DNA of 64,000 bases from Solibacteraceae bacterium. GTDB taxonomy: Bacteria > Acidobacteriota > Terriglobia > Bryobacterales > Bryobacteraceae. The stretch lies in NCBI GenBank assembly GCA_021324015.1, contig JAJPJX010000084.1, positions 62,001 through 126,000 on the forward strand, read 5' to 3'. A program made the translations under genes and the position numbers. The notes beneath the pieces were generated by a model, which made no database searches, had not been told where the DNA came from, and saw only the letters and a list, made by a program, of their open reading frames with translations. Below, piece by piece: positions 2,892-57,061 of the stretch; positions within the stretch are counted from its first letter, which is position 1; each line of letters opens with the position of its first letter.

Positions 2892-3739
2892 TTGAGCTTC
2901 TGGCGGAGGACATCAAAGAATCTCATGCGCGGGGGGCGGATTAAATGGAGTGCGTAAGGGGAACTGCGGCACAGCACGCGATCGTCGCACTGTAGCGGTT
3001 CGCCGATTTGCCCATCGATAGTGAGAAAAACGGAGGAATCCTCGCCCCGACAGATGACTTGAATCACGCTGGTCTCCGGAACGATTACCGGCCGGTTAGT
3101 GAGCATGTGCGGACAGATGGGGGTGAGACAAATGGCCGGCACGGAGGGAAAAATGATCGGGCCGCCAGCGGATAGCGAGTACGCCGTGGATCCGGTCGGG
3201 GTGGACACGATCAGCCCGTCGGCCTTGTAGGCACACACGAACTGCTCGTCCACGAACGTGTCCAGATCGATCATGCGGGCGATGGACACCTTGGTGAGGA
3301 CCGCGTCGTTGAGCGCCTCGTAGCGCGCCACGGTCTGGCCGCCGCGGTGCACCTCCACTTGCAGGAGCTTGCGCTTGCCCACGCGGTGCTCGCCGCGGAA
3401 GGCGCGCTCCAGTTCCGGATAGAGTTCCTCCACCGTGATGGCGGTGAGGAACCCCAAGCCGCCGGCATTGACCGGAAACAGCGGGATCTCCCGCCGCCCG
3501 ATGGCTCGCGCCGCCGAGAGCAACGTGCCATCCCCGCCCAACACGATCACCAGGTCGCAGCCCTCGGGCACCTGCTCGCGTGGGAGACCCTCGCCCTCGG
3601 CAGCGTAGGCAGCGGCACTCGAATCGCAGCGCACCTGGATGCCGCGTTCCCGCAGCCAACGGAAGAGCCCCGGCACAATCTCCGCAGCCAGAGCCACGCC
3701 GGGCTTGGCAATGATCCCGACTACCTTAATGACGGGCAT
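2876..3739 (-). CDS. nadK: NAD kinase
   Basis: A 287-residue cytoplasmic enzyme that phosphorylates NAD to NADP. It shows the ATP-binding LGGDGTLL motif, the ALNDAVL segment and the KADGLIVSTPTGSTAYSLSAGGP block that is diagnostic of the family. The ATG at 3739 (MPVIKVVGIIAKP) matches the family N-terminus. A longer frame extends upstream but only as a shadow of tlyA. The start overlaps the tlyA stop by 14 bases, and the order xseB-ispA-tlyA-nadK with overlapping ends indicates one operon. Confidence 0.95.
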   Translation of the reverse strand: MPVIKVVGIIAKPGVALAAEIVPGLFRWLRERGIQVRCDSSAAAYAAEGEGLPREQVPEGCDLVIVLGGDGTLLSAARAIGRREIPLFPVNAGGLGFLTAITVEELYPELERAFRGEHRVGKRKLLQVEVHRGGQTVARYEALNDAVLTKVSIARMIDLDTFVDEQFVCAYKADGLIVSTPTGSTAYSLSAGGPIIFPSVPAICLTPICPHMLTNRPVIVPETSVIQVICRGEDSSVFLTIDGQIGEPLQCDDRVLCRSSPYALHLIRPPRMRFFDVLRQKLKWGER

Positions 3740-49082: not shown

Positions 49083-52000
49083 CCGTCCCGCCGATGGATG
49101 TGCACGCCTATTACCGACAGGTCACCGACATCGATATCGGCGAGATTGCCCGCGAGCTGCTGGCGGGCCGCATCATACAGGAATCCCGGCAGACCCTTTT
49201 CTGCGATTGCCCGAACCACCGCAGCCAGTCGCATCGGTCGCTTCACATCTGGCTCGATAAGCAGGGCTGGTACTGCCACGCTTGCGGGGTCGGCGGTGAT
49301 GTCCTTCAGCTTGTCGAGTTCGTACAGCACGGCGTTGTAACAAAGGGACAGACCGGCCCAATGCCCGACTCCCACCGCCAGGCGCGGGATTTCCTGGCCG
49401 CGCGCGCCGGGTTGCCGCCGCTGTCGAAGCTCGCATCGGGCGACCCGGAAAAAGCGGAAGATGAGTATCGGCTTACGCTGCGTGTCCGCGAGGCCCTTAC
49501 CGTCCTGGCGGAACTCTACCACGAGCGGCTCATGGCGAATGCGGAAGTCCTCGGCTGGTTCCGCAGCAAATACGGGATCGGCGAAGAGACCATCGCACGT
49601 CTGAAGGTCGGCTTCGCGGACAACTTCGAACCAAGCGTGGCCCGCGCCCTCATGGATGGGCCGCACGCGTTCACCCTGGGCGAGCTGACAGCCACCTCCG
49701 CATTCCGGCCGACGCTGCAGGACGGCATCGTGCCTTTCTTCGATGGCCGGATCGTCTTCCCTTACTGGAGCCGCGGCCAGGTCGTTTTCATGATCGGCCG
49801 GCGCACGGACTGGACATCGGACGTCGAGTGGGAGAAATCCAAATACAAGAAGCTGGCGGTGCGGAATGACCGGGACCATAAATACATCGCCCCATGTATT
49901 CGGAACGACGTTCTCTACAACGAGGATGTGCTGCTCACGCGCCCGGAACGGATCATCATCACGGAAGGCGTCACGGATTGCATTTCCCTGATGGAGCACG
50001 GGTTCCCGGTAGTTTCGCCCGTGACCACCAAGATCCGCGACTCCGATTGGGAACGGCTGATACCGAAGCTCCGGGGCGTCAAGACGGTCTTCGTCTGCCA
50101 GGATAACGAGGTCTCCGAGGCCGGGATGCAGGGCGCGTTGAAGACCGCGCGCATCCTGGCAGGCCACGGCATCGCGACGCGCGTCGCTGTTCTGCCCCTC
50201 GGCGAGAAACAGCGGGCCGCGCGCGAGAAGCTGGCCAACCTGCCCCCAGGCAGCCCCGGAGCCGACGAGCTTGAGGCCGACGCCAAGATCGACGTGAATG
50301 AGTTTTTCGCCGCCGGCCAAACCGCTGCGGATTTCGAAGCGATCCTCGCCTCGGCCCAGACGCCGCTCGAGATGGCGATTTCGACGCTGAATAGCGATAT
50401 CACGGACACCGACCTCAGCCGGCTTCTGGAGCCGATCCTGGCGGAAGTGGGCGGCATGTCTCCCATTGAAAGGGAACGCCACCTCCGGCTGATACAGGCT
50501 CGCTGCGGTAAATCCAAATTGCCAGTCAGCATATTGCGGCAGCAGATGAAGGTCGTTGTCCTGGACGACAAGACGCGCCGCAAGCACGGCGGCCGCCGGG
50601 ACGGTGCGCGCGGGAATGACTCCGCAGGTAGCGGGCCCGGCGGCCAGTCGGCCCTGCCCAGGATTCAGATCAATGATCGCCAACTGCGGGAAATCGTGTC
50701 CGATGCATGGGCCGCCGTCCATCGCGCCAACGAGCACGGCGCCAGCATCTGCCCGCACACTCCATTTCTTTTCCACCGCGCCGGGAAGCTTGTGCGGCTC
50801 GCGGTTGGCGAGTCTGGCCCGGAGATCGATGAAATGGACGAGGACGCGGTCTTCGGACTTTTGGCGCGCACGGCCGATTGGCACAAGTCCGGTGAAGACT
50901 CGATCACCGAGACGTCGCCACCACGCGACGCCGCCCGCGACATGCTGGCGTACCCCGATTTGCATCTGCCGATGCTGGAGGGCGTCATCAGCACGCCCGT
51001 GTTCGGCCACAAGGGAGATTTGATTGTGAACGAAGGCTATCACAAGAACGACCGGCTCTGGCTGTCTCCGGACCCCAGCCTCGAGCTGCAGCCGATTCCC
51101 GATGAGCCGTCTCCGGAGGACATCACGGCCGCGCGCGAACTTCTTTTCGGGGAGCTGCTCGTGGACTTCCCGTTCGTGGATGCCTCCGACCGCGCCCACG
51201 CCGTCGCCGCCATGATCCTGCCGTTCATCCGGCGCATAATTGATGGGCCCACGCCGATGCATCTTATCGAGGCGCCCACCATGGGGTCCGGCAAAGGTCT
51301 GCTGGCCAACCTGATTTCCATCGTCGCAACCGGCGCCGTTTGCGAAGCCCGCACGTTGCCGGAAAACGAGGATGAAGTTCGCAAAATGGTGACCGCGGAA
51401 TTGATGAAGGGCCGGCCCATTGTCCTGCTGGACAACGCCAGTGATCGCCGGCAACTCTATTCGTCATCCTTGGCTTCGGTCTTGACGTCCGTCCGCTGGA
51501 CCGACCGGAAGCTTGGGCAGTCGGCCATGGCGTCGGTTCCGAACAACGCCCTTTGGATGATGACGGCGAACAACCCCAACCTGCACCTGGAACTCACTCG
51601 CCGCTGCATCCGGCTGCGCATTGATCCGCGGGTGGACCGTCCGTGGAAGCGCACTTCCTTCAAACATCCTGAGATTACGACATGGGCGAAGGAAAGCCGG
51701 TCGGCGCTGGTGGGCGGCATCCTCACTCTGATCCGGGCATGGATGGTGGCTGGGAGGCCACTGGACCGCGCGCGCCTCGGTTCCTTCGAGCGATGGTCTA
51801 CGGTCATGGGAGGCATTCTCAATGTTGCCGGGATTTCCGGTTTCCTGGCTAACCTCGATCAGCTCTATGAGGCCGCCGACCAGGACGGCCAGGCATGGCG
51901 CGCATTCACTGCCGCCTGGTGGGAGGCTTTCCGGGACCAGCCCAAGAAAGTCAGCGAGCTGAACCAGTTTTGCGAAGAGCGCGAGCTGATGCTGAAGCTG

Positions 52001-52558
52001 CGCGGCGACGGCTCGCTGCGCTCCCAGCAAATCCGGCTTGGGAACGCCCTGACGAATTGCCGGGACCGGTCCTTTAATGGTCTCTGCGTCGTCCGTCTGG
52101 ATGAGGAAACCAAGCACAAGGGCGTGAGCATGTACGCCCTCGTGGCGGCCGATTCCGGGAATTGGGGATGTTGGGGATCTTTTGGGGATGTTGCCGACAA
52201 ACATCCCCCAGAGTCAACTCCCGCAGATTCAGAGGATTACAAACTACTTGGGGATGTTGGGGATGTTGGGGCCGTACCTTCGCGTGTAGAGAGAGATTTT
52301 TGCGCGAGTCCGGAAGAAGGAGAAGACCTTCACGCGCGCGCGTGTAAAGGTACAGCCGATAACATCCCCAAGATCCCCAACATCCCCAAATTCTCCGCAA
52401 CCGATTGTAATGAAAGCACAAACGACTTGGGGATGTTGGAAGGCAACATCCCCAAAACATCCCCAAGCCGGTCAGACATCCCCAAATCCGGCCGGGCGCG
52501 CGTGGACCTGGCGGATTTCGATGACGGCTCCATGCCGCCGAGCCGGGGTCGGTCATGA
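49079..52558 (+). CDS. Primase-helicase fusion with CHC2 zinc finger and Toprim domains
   Basis: A 1159-residue replication protein. The CHC2-type zinc finger is at about 42-69 (CDCPNH, WYCHACG). The primase core follows and the Toprim motif IITEGVTDCISLMEHG is near 292-307. The ATPase begins near 730 with Walker A EAPTMGSGKGLLAN, then VLLDNASD and MMTANNPNLHLELTRRCIRLR like a phage or integrative-element helicase. The C-terminal 130 residues are low in complexity (repeated GDVGD, NIPK) because their DNA is a repeat array. GTG start at 49079 overlaps the recD-like stop. Confidence 0.88.
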   Translation: MTVPPMDVHAYYRQVTDIDIGEIARELLAGRIIQESRQTLFCDCPNHRSQSHRSLHIWLDKQGWYCHACGVGGDVLQLVEFVQHGVVTKGQTGPMPDSHRQARDFLAARAGLPPLSKLASGDPEKAEDEYRLTLRVREALTVLAELYHERLMANAEVLGWFRSKYGIGEETIARLKVGFADNFEPSVARALMDGPHAFTLGELTATSAFRPTLQDGIVPFFDGRIVFPYWSRGQVVFMIGRRTDWTSDVEWEKSKYKKLAVRNDRDHKYIAPCIRNDVLYNEDVLLTRPERIIITEGVTDCISLMEHGFPVVSPVTTKIRDSDWERLIPKLRGVKTVFVCQDNEVSEAGMQGALKTARILAGHGIATRVAVLPLGEKQRAAREKLANLPPGSPGADELEADAKIDVNEFFAAGQTAADFEAILASAQTPLEMAISTLNSDITDTDLSRLLEPILAEVGGMSPIERERHLRLIQARCGKSKLPVSILRQQMKVVVLDDKTRRKHGGRRDGARGNDSAGSGPGGQSALPRIQINDRQLREIVSDAWAAVHRANEHGASICPHTPFLFHRAGKLVRLAVGESGPEIDEMDEDAVFGLLARTADWHKSGEDSITETSPPRDAARDMLAYPDLHLPMLEGVISTPVFGHKGDLIVNEGYHKNDRLWLSPDPSLELQPIPDEPSPEDITAARELLFGELLVDFPFVDASDRAHAVAAMILPFIRRIIDGPTPMHLIEAPTMGSGKGLLANLISIVATGAVCEARTLPENEDEVRKMVTAELMKGRPIVLLDNASDRRQLYSSSLASVLTSVRWTDRKLGQSAMASVPNNALWMMTANNPNLHLELTRRCIRLRIDPRVDRPWKRTSFKHPEITTWAKESRSALVGGILTLIRAWMVAGRPLDRARLGSFERWSTVMGGILNVAGISGFLANLDQLYEAADQDGQAWRAFTAAWWEAFRDQPKKVSELNQFCEERELMLKLRGDGSLRSQQIRLGNALTNCRDRSFNGLCVVRLDEETKHKGVSMYALVAADSGNWGCWGSFGDVADKHPPESTPADSEDYKLLGDVGDVGAVPSRVERDFCASPEEGEDLHARACKGTADNIPKIPNIPKFSATDCNESTNDLGMLEGNIPKTSPSRSDIPKSGRARVDLADFDDGSMPPSRGRS
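52164..52483. repeat. Bidirectional GGGGAT/ATCCCC array inside primase 3' end (possible origin)
   Basis: I counted six GGGGAT (52164, 52173, 52184, 52250, 52259, 52429) and seven ATCCCC (52203, 52364, 52373, 52382, 52448, 52459, 52478). Runs have a 9-bp step (GGGGATGTT). A large imperfect inverted repeat places the 52250-52280 block opposite 52347-52388, with a 14-bp palindrome CACGCGCGCGCGTG at 52331-52344 in between. TTGGGGATGTTG and CAACATCCCCAA form a perfect 12-bp hairpin at 52427-52455. Location at the end of a primase gene suggests a replication origin or a binding array. Confidence 0.75.
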
Positions 52559-53232
52559 GCGCCATGCCCGCCGCCGTCTCTGCCCCGGCCGCCGTTCACC
52601 TCTTCGTTTCAACTGCGCTCGAATTCTGGTCCACTGACCAGGGCGCCGCGTTCGCCCGCGACGTGCAGATTGACGACACGATGTACCGGCGGCTCGATCC
52701 CGAGTATTACGCTTGGCTGCGGTCGCGGATGTTGCTGGCGAAGAAGGCGGTGGATGCCGGGCAGCTCGATGTGGCCGCCTTTGACGATCTGCGCGCCCGG
52801 TTCAATGCCGTGCAGGAGTGGGCGGTCGAGCATTTCGGCGAGGGGCAATTGCTGGCGGCGGTGCGGACACTTCGCGCCGGCGAATACAAGCCGCCCGTGG
52901 CCGAAGATGATCGGCCACATGCCCCGTTGCCGCGCGCGGCAATATCCGCGGGCGATCGCGTGTCGCCCGAAGCCGTTGCCATAGTGGACGCCATTGCGGA
53001 GAAGGCAGCAGCACTTGGGTGGGCCCGCGAACGGCTCTACGCCATTGGTAACGGCCTGTTCGATCCGCAGCGCGGCCTCATCTGCTATTTGAAGCCTGGC
53101 GACCGCATCGGCCAAGTCACGTCGCAGTCAATCGAGATCATCCATGCGTTGCCGTCCGAGGTGCGCCACCGCTTCTACAACCCGGACGCGGACCAGCCGT
53201 GGATCATCCGGGTCGCGGAGCAAAAAAAGTGA
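52555..53232 (+). CDS. Hypothetical phage protein
   Basis: A 225-residue protein starting with ATG in the last four bases of the primase gene. Helical N-terminal half (TMYRRLDPEYYAWLRSRMLLAKKAVDAGQLD), then a Pro-rich hinge, then a C-terminal part (AAALGWARERLYAIGNGLFDPQRGLICYLKPGDRIGQVTSQSIEII) that resembles no family I know. No transmembrane segment. It is in the replication operon and may belong with it. Confidence 0.7.
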   Translation: MSAMPAAVSAPAAVHLFVSTALEFWSTDQGAAFARDVQIDDTMYRRLDPEYYAWLRSRMLLAKKAVDAGQLDVAAFDDLRARFNAVQEWAVEHFGEGQLLAAVRTLRAGEYKPPVAEDDRPHAPLPRAAISAGDRVSPEAVAIVDAIAEKAAALGWARERLYAIGNGLFDPQRGLICYLKPGDRIGQVTSQSIEIIHALPSEVRHRFYNPDADQPWIIRVAEQKK

Positions 53233-54149: not shown

Positions 54150-55772
54150 ATGAGCGGCCCCACCCCTATCACGCCCGCGATGGCGAAACAAATCGAGCTC
54201 TGGCCGGTGGAGCGGCTGGTGCCGTATGCAAAGAATGCCCGGACGCACTCCGAGGAGCAGATCGCGCAGATTGCAGCAAGCATCGCCGAGTTTGGCTTCA
54301 ACAACCCCGTGTTGGTGGACACGAGCGCGGGCCTCATCGCCGGGCACGGCCGTGTGCTGGCTGCGCGCAAGCTCGGGCTGGAGCAGATCCCGGTAGTTGT
54401 GCTCGACCACCTCTCCGAGACGCAGAAGCGGGCCTTCCTCATTGCGGACAACCGAATCAGCGAGAGCGCCAGATGGGACGACGAGATCCTGCGCGGTGAG
54501 TTGGCGGAGCTGAAGGATGCCGAATTCGATCTGGCCCTGCTGGGCTTCAGCGATGACGAACTGGAGGCCTTGCTGGCTGAGGCTGCGACCGAGGCCCCGG
54601 TTCCCGGTGAGGAGGAAGCGCCGGAAGAAGACATCGCGGAAGCCCCAGTTGAGCCGGTCACACGTCCAGGCGACGTCTGGCTGATCGGCGACCACCGCCT
54701 GATTTGTGGCGACTGCCGGGATTACGGTGTTGTGGCGCGGCTGTTCGACGGCGCGCGGGCGAACGTGGTGATTACATCGCCGCCATACGCGACGCAGCGC
54801 GAGTACGATCCCGCGAGCGGCTTCAAGCCAGTGCCCCCAGAAGAGTATGCCGTATGGTTTTCTGATGTCGCGGCCAACATCCGGACGATCCTGGCGCCCG
54901 ATGGCTCTTACTTCCTCAACATCAAGGAGCATGCGGCCGACGGTGAGCGCCACCTGTACGTGAAGGATCTCATCATCGCGCACAAGCGGCAGTGGGGATG
55001 GCGATTCGTGGATGAGTTCTGTTGGCGCAAGACCGACAACGGCGTGCCGGGCGGATGGGGGAACAGGTTCAAGAACGCATGGGAACCGGTGTTTCACCTG
55101 TGCATTCAACCCGAGATCAAATTCCGGCCCCAGGCGGTCGGACACGTCTCCGGAGACTGTTTCGATTACTCGCCGGACAATCCAGTATCGAGGTCCGGGA
55201 GCGGCTTGTTGGGGACGGGGCCACGCGGGGCATCGGCCTCTTTGCCCCCGCAGGGATCGCAGGGCTGGGGCCACATGCGCCGCAAGCTCGTGGACGGCAG
55301 GCATGAAGGCATCGCGCGGCCCAGCAACGTGATCGAAGCTAAGACGGAGAGCGGACAGGGAAGCCATTCCGCCCCATTTCCGCGCGCGCTGGTCGAGTTC
55401 TTCGTGAAAGCGTTCTCGGATGCAGGCGACATCGTCTTCGATCCGTTCCTGGGGAGCGGCACGACCATCGCCGCGGCCCACGTGCTTGGGCGTAAGGGAT
55501 ACGGATGCGAAATCTCGCCAGCATACTGCGACGTGATCCTGCGCCGCATCGAGCGCTTGGCAGAAGCGGAGCCAGAACTCGCGGAGACCGGTACCAGGTT
55601 CGGCGAAGTTGCGGAGGGCCGGGGCGTCCCGGCAGTGGGGGATGCAGATCTTCGCCAGCGCGACTCCCGGTCAATCCGCCGCAAGCCGAATGGAATGCCG
55701 TGTTACGGGCCGCAAAACCGCCAGAAGCCGAATGGCGCCCCGGTTTTCGTAAAGAGCGGACGGATTCGATAA
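54150..55772 (+). CDS. ParB-domain DNA methyltransferase (first copy)
   Basis: A 540-residue fusion. Residues 1-130 are a ParB/Sulfiredoxin-type domain (VERLVPYAKNARTHSEEQIAQIAASIAEFGFNNPVLV, AGHGRVLAARKLG). Residues about 165-500 are a DNA methylase with ITSPPYATQREYDP (motif IV) and FDPFLGSGTTIAAAHVLGRKGYGCEI (motif I), in permuted order. Phages carry such proteins as solitary methylases. The first domain and its spacing to the second are repeated in the next gene. Target base not known. Confidence 0.88.
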   Translation: MSGPTPITPAMAKQIELWPVERLVPYAKNARTHSEEQIAQIAASIAEFGFNNPVLVDTSAGLIAGHGRVLAARKLGLEQIPVVVLDHLSETQKRAFLIADNRISESARWDDEILRGELAELKDAEFDLALLGFSDDELEALLAEAATEAPVPGEEEAPEEDIAEAPVEPVTRPGDVWLIGDHRLICGDCRDYGVVARLFDGARANVVITSPPYATQREYDPASGFKPVPPEEYAVWFSDVAANIRTILAPDGSYFLNIKEHAADGERHLYVKDLIIAHKRQWGWRFVDEFCWRKTDNGVPGGWGNRFKNAWEPVFHLCIQPEIKFRPQAVGHVSGDCFDYSPDNPVSRSGSGLLGTGPRGASASLPPQGSQGWGHMRRKLVDGRHEGIARPSNVIEAKTESGQGSHSAPFPRALVEFFVKAFSDAGDIVFDPFLGSGTTIAAAHVLGRKGYGCEISPAYCDVILRRIERLAEAEPELAETGTRFGEVAEGRGVPAVGDADLRQRDSRSIRRKPNGMPCYGPQNRQKPNGAPVFVKSGRIR

Positions 55773-55783
55773 CAGCGCACACC

Positions 55784-57061
55784 ATGGGAATCAGCATCAC
55801 CAAACAGCTTCGCGATCTGCTGGTACAGATTTGGCCGTTGGACCGGCTCCTGCCGTACATCCGGAACGCGCGCACCCATAGCGAAGAACAGATCGCGCAA
55901 GTCGCAGCCAGCATCCAGGAATTCGGGTGGACGAATCCGATCCTGGTCGGCGCCGATGGTGTTGTCATAGCCGGCCATGCGCGCCTCGCAGCCGCCCGGA
56001 AGTTGGGCATGACCGAGGTCCCGGTGATTGTGCTGGACCACCTGACGCCCACGCAGCGGCGCGCCCTCGTTCTGGCCGACAACAAGCTAGCGCTCAATGC
56101 CGGGTGGGATGAGGAGATGCTTCGAGTCGAACTGGAGGCGCTGAAAGAAGACGACTTCAAGCTCGACGTGGTGGGCTTTTCCGATGCAGAGATCGAGGCG
56201 CTACTCCAGGAGCCCGAGACGGTCGCGGAAGGGCTGACCGATGAAGATGCCGTTCCGGAGACGCCAGAGACCGCCGTGACGGTTCCCGGCGATATCTGGC
56301 TCCTGGGTGCCCACCGACTGCTTTGCGGGGATTCCACGCAGATGGAAGCGGTGGAGAAGATTCTGACTGGTGGCTTGGCGGACATGGCCTTTTTCGATCC
56401 GCCCTATAACGTGAATTACGGCGCGACCATGAAGGACAAGCTCCGCGGCAAGAAGCGGGCGATCAAGAACGACAACCTGGGTGAGGACTTCGGGCAGTTT
56501 CTGAAGGACGCGTGCACCAACGCCCTGGCAGTAACAAAGGGCGCGATTTACATTTGCATGTCGTCATCGGAGCTGCACACGCTGCATCGAGCCTTCACCG
56601 AGGCCGGCGGCCACTGGTCCACGTTCATCATCTGGGCGAAAAACACGTTCACCATGGGCCGCTCCGATTACCAGCGTCAGTACGAGCCGATTCTCTATGG
56701 CTGGAAGGAAGGCACGGATCATTTCTGGTGCGGCGCGCGCGATCAGGGCGACGTGTGGTTTGTCAAGAAGCCAGTCGCCAACGATCTCCATCCGACGATG
56801 AAGCCGGTGGAGCTGGTAGAGCGGGCGCTGCGAAATTCCAGTAAGAGCCGGGATACTGTGCTCGATTCCTTCGGCGGATCTGGATCGACGCTAATCGCCT
56901 GCGAGCGCACTGGGCGCCAGGCGCGGTTGATCGAGTTGGAGCCGAAGTACTGCGATGTAATAGTCCGGCGCTGGCAGGACCACACCGGTCAGGAGGCCAC
57001 GCTTGACGGTGATGGAAGGACGTTCCGCGACGTCGCCGCAGAGCGCCAGCCGGCAGCGTGA
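55784..57061 (+). CDS. ParB-domain DNA methyltransferase (second copy)
   Basis: A 425-residue paralogue of the preceding gene. The ParB domain (LDRLLPYIRNARTHSEEQIAQVAASIQEFGWTNPILV) is closely similar, but the methylase half differs: AFFDPPYNVNYGATMKDKLRG (motif IV) and LDSFGGSGSTLIACERTGRQARLIEL (motif I). DPPY rather than SPPY suggests a different target type. ATG at 55784; an open upstream frame overlaps the end of the first copy. Together they may modify phage DNA against host restriction. Confidence 0.9.
   Translation: MGISITKQLRDLLVQIWPLDRLLPYIRNARTHSEEQIAQVAASIQEFGWTNPILVGADGVVIAGHARLAAARKLGMTEVPVIVLDHLTPTQRRALVLADNKLALNAGWDEEMLRVELEALKEDDFKLDVVGFSDAEIEALLQEPETVAEGLTDEDAVPETPETAVTVPGDIWLLGAHRLLCGDSTQMEAVEKILTGGLADMAFFDPPYNVNYGATMKDKLRGKKRAIKNDNLGEDFGQFLKDACTNALAVTKGAIYICMSSSELHTLHRAFTEAGGHWSTFIIWAKNTFTMGRSDYQRQYEPILYGWKEGTDHFWCGARDQGDVWFVKKPVANDLHPTMKPVELVERALRNSSKSRDTVLDSFGGSGSTLIACERTGRQARLIELEPKYCDVIVRRWQDHTGQEATLDGDGRTFRDVAAERQPAA

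Follow-up and report, generated by a model that had tools for sequence, protein, structure and literature searches.

The 64,000-nucleotide stretch of Solibacteraceae DNA analysed here (the window) carries a primase-helicase gene on the forward strand (49094-52558), in a prophage context in which RecD2 helicase, terminase and portal genes are present. The encoded protein combines an N-terminal CHC2/TOPRIM primase domain (aa ~30-370), a helicase half with a D5/SaPI-Rep-like AAA+ domain (aa ~560-925), a C-terminal winged-helix-like domain (aa ~925-1018; 51866-52159, + strand) and a tail encoded by a repeat array (aa ~1022-1154), and its closest homologues lie in assemblies of Bryobacterales and other Acidobacteriota. 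A structure model (mean pLDDT 85) has the winged-helix-like domain at its end, directly before the array. By structure comparison, the helicase fold resembles those of poxvirus D5, AsfvPrimPol, SaPI5 Rep and PriRep1, with Z scores of ~12-13 to D5, SaPI5 Rep and PriRep1; when the helicase alignment was searched against the sequences of PDB chains, no match was obtained at E<=1. The winged-helix-like domain was modelled by AlphaFold2 as four helices and two strands (pLDDT 82); comparisons with this model alone returned generic or weak matches and no specific initiator domain, and it may represent an unlisted family.

After the array, the end of the tail (52488-52558, + strand) encodes a (V/I)DLA(D/K/N)(F/L) peptide, which is common to homologues, and then a stop codon that overlaps the next gene (ATGA). 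This next gene (52555-53232, + strand) encodes a conserved 225-aa protein of unknown function, which matched no known family in family searches, and is found 3' of the array in almost every close relative. It is kept whichever type of helicase the relatives have, mostly at 45-70% identity, and is possibly a replication cofactor. Downstream of the replication module lie two tandem look-alike genes (54150-55772 and 55505-57061) with ParB-like N-terminal and DNA-methyltransferase domains, as identified by family search for the first gene only.

A single word repeated across the end of the primase-helicase gene

The last ~130 codons of the primase-helicase gene are spanned by a cluster of the hexamer GGGGAT/ATCCCC, of which a count confirmed 13 exact copies in both orientations (6 on the + and 7 on the - strand) within 320 bp (52164-52483). 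Outside the array, no 320-bp stretch of the window holds more than 2. This is also the densest hexamer in any 320 bp of the whole window, tied with its overlapping neighbour TTGGGG; its total of 40 copies in the window is no more than expected by chance, and it is the clustering alone that is exceptional. The full repeated unit is an 11-bp word, TTGGGGATGTT, which recurs at tandem steps of 9 bp, and the tandem pair TTGGGGATGTTGGGGAT is absent elsewhere in the 8.2-Mb host assembly.

With 13 exact sites and one degenerate site, the array (52162-52487) is dyad-symmetric. On the left, three direct outer iterons (52162-52192, + strand; steps 9 and 11) are followed by an inverted iteron (52200-52211, - strand), which forms a + / - pair with the copy at 52182-52192, and then by the inner iterons (52248-52271, + strand), two exact and one degenerate (TTGGGGCC, 52266-52273, centre 52270). 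On the right, three inverted inner iterons (52361-52389, - strand; steps 9 and 9) precede a single + iteron (52427-52438), the mirror of the left inverted one, and three inverted outer iterons (52444-52487, - strand). The + iteron pairs with the first of these outer - iterons as a perfect 12-bp hairpin (52427-52455), which was noted originally, as were the 9-bp steps. Between the two halves lie ~90 bp without iterons (52272-52360), the putative unwinding region, containing AGAGAGAGATTTTT and the GC palindrome CACGCGCGCGCGTG (52331-52344). SaPI origins have an A+T-rich segment between two iteron sets; the centre here is only slightly A+T-richer than its surroundings (0.42 vs 0.38 for the locus).

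Site centres give the order +9+11+20-46+9+106-9-9-46+20-11-19-, which, with the degenerate site included, amounts to a base-pair mirror, +9+11+20-46+9+, centre, -9-46+20-11-. The dyad axis computed from these centres is 52318.5, about which six pairs are exact, counting the degenerate site (52270/52367, 52261/52376, 52252/52385, 52206/52431, 52186/52451 and 52175/52462); the outermost pair, 52166/52481, is the sole mirror pair that is off, by 10 bp. The large inverted repeat noted from the sequence is thus present, as is the GC palindrome on which it was thought to be centred, but the axis does not lie at 52331-52344. The palindrome was rejected as a conserved centre, since it is not conserved in homologues.

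The clustering is beyond chance and is not explained by the encoded protein. Over 20,000 trials of synonymous recoding of the tail, the mean number of hexamers was 1.69 and the maximum 7, vs the 13 observed. The tail, initially described as low-complexity, is better described as repetitive, a single word being translated in each of the three forward frames and in either orientation (as WGC, GDV, LGM, IPK, TSP and PPE). The prediction that the DNA rather than the protein is constrained was supported by comparison of third codon positions with L004, a homologue that has the same word as the window: within the words, 38/38 are identical (100%), compared with 52% in the core and 58% in tail codons outside the words. 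It is therefore scarcely credible that the repeats serve the protein, with the tail acting as a repetitive linker or interaction peptide: the shared (V/I)DLA(D/K/N)(F/L) peptide after the array leaves room for a protein-level function at the end of the tail, but the word occurs in all frames, its third positions are fixed, and relatives include non-coding arrays as well as a locus (L036) whose frame is shifted and whose array is retained.

The array among homologues and its probable reader

Homologous loci were drawn from contigs of viruses and genomes and from relatives; those with an identity of ~55% or more each have 5-14 sites of a single word at closely similar spacings. The mirror layout is kept over ~25 homologues with 8-10 different words, and in dozens of prophages. 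A mirror partner within 2 bp was found for 334/476 sites in 44 arrays, vs 224 after orientation shuffling and 203 after position shuffling. While the layout is constant, the word is not: homologues can differ in word (e.g. TTGGGGATGTT vs TGTCGGGATCTT), and the words found include TTGGGGATGTT, TTGGGGACCTT, TTGGGGACGTT, GGGGAACGTT, GTGGAGACGTT, GTGGGGACGTT, GTCGGGATCTT and CGGCGGACCTC. The change is concerted, in that all sites of an element change together and nearly all copies in one element are alike.

The repeats were kept, with their layout, where the tail is absent. In the tail-less loci L013, L014 and L053, and in loci with a VirE-type helicase (e.g. L019, L033 and L058), the array begins immediately past the stop codon and occupies the interval up to the next conserved gene. 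These non-coding arrays begin only a few bp from the stop, whereas the window array overlaps the gene end. Coding is thus incidental to the function of the array, and the non-coding versions, the frame-shifted L036 and the mirror statistics show that the element is DNA. The distribution of coding and non-coding versions suggests that the reading frame has captured the origin, likely through loss of a stop codon.

Arrays of this kind extend beyond close relatives. Many Acidobacteriota phrog_10537, DUF927 and VapE genes have them no more than about 100 bp from the stop codon; for example, a DUF927 helicase gene in L137 is followed (3190-3381) by a perfect mirror of CACTGTCCACA, -9-9-41+23+20-23-41+9+9+. 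Arrays near the helicase gene also occur in actinobacterial plasmids (L164 and L165), an archaeal virus (L096, vir525) and Pseudomonas phage LPPA36 (L170). We also checked eight cultured phages with distant helicase relatives, several of them large: vir525 was the one with a comparable array, and no comparable mirror array was detected near the gene in the other 7/8 (RcXuper, DSS3P8, phiCbK, Cp1R7A-A1, Rctr197k, phiAsp2 and Moulinsart), by a detector that requires exact 8-mers and whose negatives are weak, because it missed the degenerate 18-bp iterons of lambda, P4 crr and anything in N15.

Position is not fixed: in some distant relatives the array lies 1.3-2.7 kb downstream of the gene (L064 11393-11694; L066 10236-10541; L041 11989-12311; L042 10597-10916). 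In Bordetella phage BPP-1 (L163, 2608-2711), CGAGGCAA occurs as two tandem pairs that mirror each other, -9- 78 +9+, ~470 bp past the end of the primase gene, a candidate origin of similar style, and Rhodobacter phage RcMcDreamy (L171, 3907-3947) has four tandem 11-bp repeats, TTGCCGCTCAG, ~100 bp after its prim-pol/helicase gene.

The word follows the type of helicase, not the primase. D5-type and VirE-type loci resemble each other in primase and share their downstream gene; their helicases differ. Pairs of D5-type loci share 8.3-8.5 of 11 word letters at primase distances of <0.2, 0.2-0.3 and 0.3-0.4, whereas D5-VirE pairs in the same bins share 4.7-5.4, with random words sharing 4.8. In addition, L084 and L082, which are related to the window in the helicase half only (36-40% identity), have words (GCGGGGACT and GCGGGGATAG) similar to that of the window. 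Both results imply that the word travels with the helicase. The original suggestion to test the primase for binding can be refined: the probable reader is the helicase half of the protein, with its C-terminal winged helix, and not the primase domain.

Within this half, the winged-helix domain would be the part that recognises the iterons, by analogy with SaPI Rep, which reads an origin directly downstream of its own gene via its C-terminal domain, and Cch2, which likewise uses its C-terminal domain (PMC7581432). In partial Mantel tests, word similarity was associated with the winged helix given the AAA+ domain (r=0.26, p=0.002) and not with the AAA+ domain given the winged helix (r=0.04, n.s.). 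This support is modest and confounded by phylogeny: because the primase given the winged helix is also significant (r=0.36), shared ancestry is not separated from an effect of the winged helix. In an alignment of homologues, the wing loop (window aa ~1003-1013) seems to vary with the word, KHKG occurring with TTGGGGA, NHKTG with GTGG(G/A)GAC and ERKHG with GGGGAACG, a correspondence that is possibly a recognition code.

Inverted repeated words beside replication genes are also known as operators and centromeres, and a ParB-domain gene lies downstream (54150-55772). Nevertheless, we consider it very improbable that the array serves as an operator through which the replication operon is regulated, or as a parS-like partition array: it sits at the 3' end of the gene, its word changes with the type of helicase even where the primase and downstream gene are unchanged, and the homologous array of the plasmid pWTY27 is bound by the helicase itself and required for replication (PMC3583192).

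Comparison with characterised origins

The closest experimental parallel is offered by this Streptomyces plasmid, whose RepA matches the window helicase with 32% identity over 409 aa (E 3e-62). As in the window, a mirror array of one word lies directly 3' of the homologous helicase gene, its ten sites forming an exact mirror (+11+15-41+9+71-9-41+15-11-) with inner tandem pairs 9 bp apart and outer + / - pairs. Unlike in the window, the word is GTGGGAAC, the centre measures 71 bp (vs ~106), the array is non-coding, and the primase is a separate gene of another type (prim-pol). The minimal pWTY27 replicon comprises repA, repB and a 300-bp region, replication is bidirectional, and RepA binds the region in EMSA with DNase I footprints at 405-447 and 462-509; a 149-bp central piece (382-530) fails to restore replication (PMC3583192). 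When site centres are converted to plasmid coordinates (4516 minus locus position), the inner pairs fall at 498/489 and 418/409, within the two footprints, and the outer sites all fall outside the 149-bp piece. This suggests that the outer sites are needed for replication, although the shortening took away other bases too.

As in the window, the P4 protein, alpha, is a primase-helicase fusion, and it serves as initiator. The type-1 iterons annotated at P4 ori (GenBank) are spaced +10+11+21-44+10+, and those of the left half of the window array +9+11+20-46+9+, so that each step agrees within 1-2 bp; the + / - distances in this comparison depend on word register, and the same-strand distances (65 and 66) are independent of it. 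Unlike the window array, P4 ori is one half-array far from the gene and without a mirror, and its type I word, GGTGAACA, is not the TTGGGGATGTT of the window. P4 also has a second element, crr, next to alpha, whereas the window has one compact array: split cis elements of the ori and crr type were not found, as the tandem word occurs in the host assembly only at the array.

SaPI Rep and SCCmec Cch2 have a related helicase fold (SaPI5 Rep 7ola/7om0, Cch 5dgk), and SaPIs, in line with the proposal for the window, have a short-iteron origin directly downstream of the helicase gene, the SaPI array having been compared by description only. They differ in that their array is not described as coding, and the window helicase lacks a sequence-level match to the solved structures. 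Lambda ori resembles the window array in that its iterons lie inside the initiator coding sequence (gene O, GenBank annotation), but these are four ~18-bp direct iterons in mid-gene, without mirror symmetry, and O is not a helicase. The archaeal plasmid pRN1 depends on a stem-loop of 100 bp immediately 3' of its replication gene, which, like that of the window, encodes a fused primase, helicase and winged helix (PMC4234260), but there the cis element is the stem-loop, with no array of a repeated word.

A strand of the array, as mRNA or extruded DNA, could in principle act as one long recognised hairpin, as proposed for pRN1 and for pWTY27, whose authors interpreted their data as stem-loop recognition (PMC3583192). 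The predicted fold of the array is indeed strong (RNA z -9.0, DNA z -11.1). However, the mirrored halves are complementary in the words only (67%), while the spacers are 30% complementary, near chance, and thus form no continuous long stem of the pRN1 type. Tandem same-strand copies have the same word, which pairing does not need; the array has no Rfam match; and since the half-array of P4 alone is its annotated ori, a mirror partner is not always needed. A folded strand is, in light of these comparisons, an improbable explanation.

A proposed prophage origin and its wider meaning

Conserved mirror repeats, arrays that are independent of the tail, and the binding and replication data for pWTY27 (PMC3583192) all support the origin role originally predicted. 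The GC-skew minimum suggested as a check gave no clear support, with no clear minimum or origin signature at the array. Overall, it is highly probable that the array is the replication origin of the prophage, with its words bound by the helicase half of the protein whose gene contains them. The copies of the 11-bp word would be the binding sites, most likely contacted by the C-terminal winged helix, and the helicase would assemble on both mirror half-arrays, probably as two facing hexamers. It may then open the ~100-bp centre for bidirectional replication, with primers laid by the fused primase. In this lineage the reading frame, having no stop before the proposed origin, runs through it, yielding a translated C-terminal tail that reaches the next gene.

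This kind of origin, with iterons beside a helicase-initiator gene, is already known; what is new is the mirror layout, the concerted change of word and the capture by an open reading frame, and we found no paper in the open-access literature on this mirror layout or on a translated origin of such a type. More broadly, helicase initiators of mobile elements may share one portable origin grammar of mirror-image half-arrays with same-strand steps of about 9-11-66-9 bp, in which the word is exchangeable and set by the winged helix; P4, pWTY27-type plasmids and prophages would then be its dialects, and in some lineages the origin would have been absorbed into the initiator gene as dual-coding DNA. 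This generalisation seems to us about as likely as not.

The array offers a route to the origins of many uncultured phages from sequence alone, by looking for mirror arrays of one word just after the primase-helicase gene or inside its tail, and it ties the origin of P4, and that of a plasmid already characterised, to a broad family of prophages. With words and winged helices varying naturally side by side, a code of origin recognition becomes directly testable. Finally, an origin that is both transcribed and translated prompts one to ask how the start of replication can coexist with translation of the same DNA.
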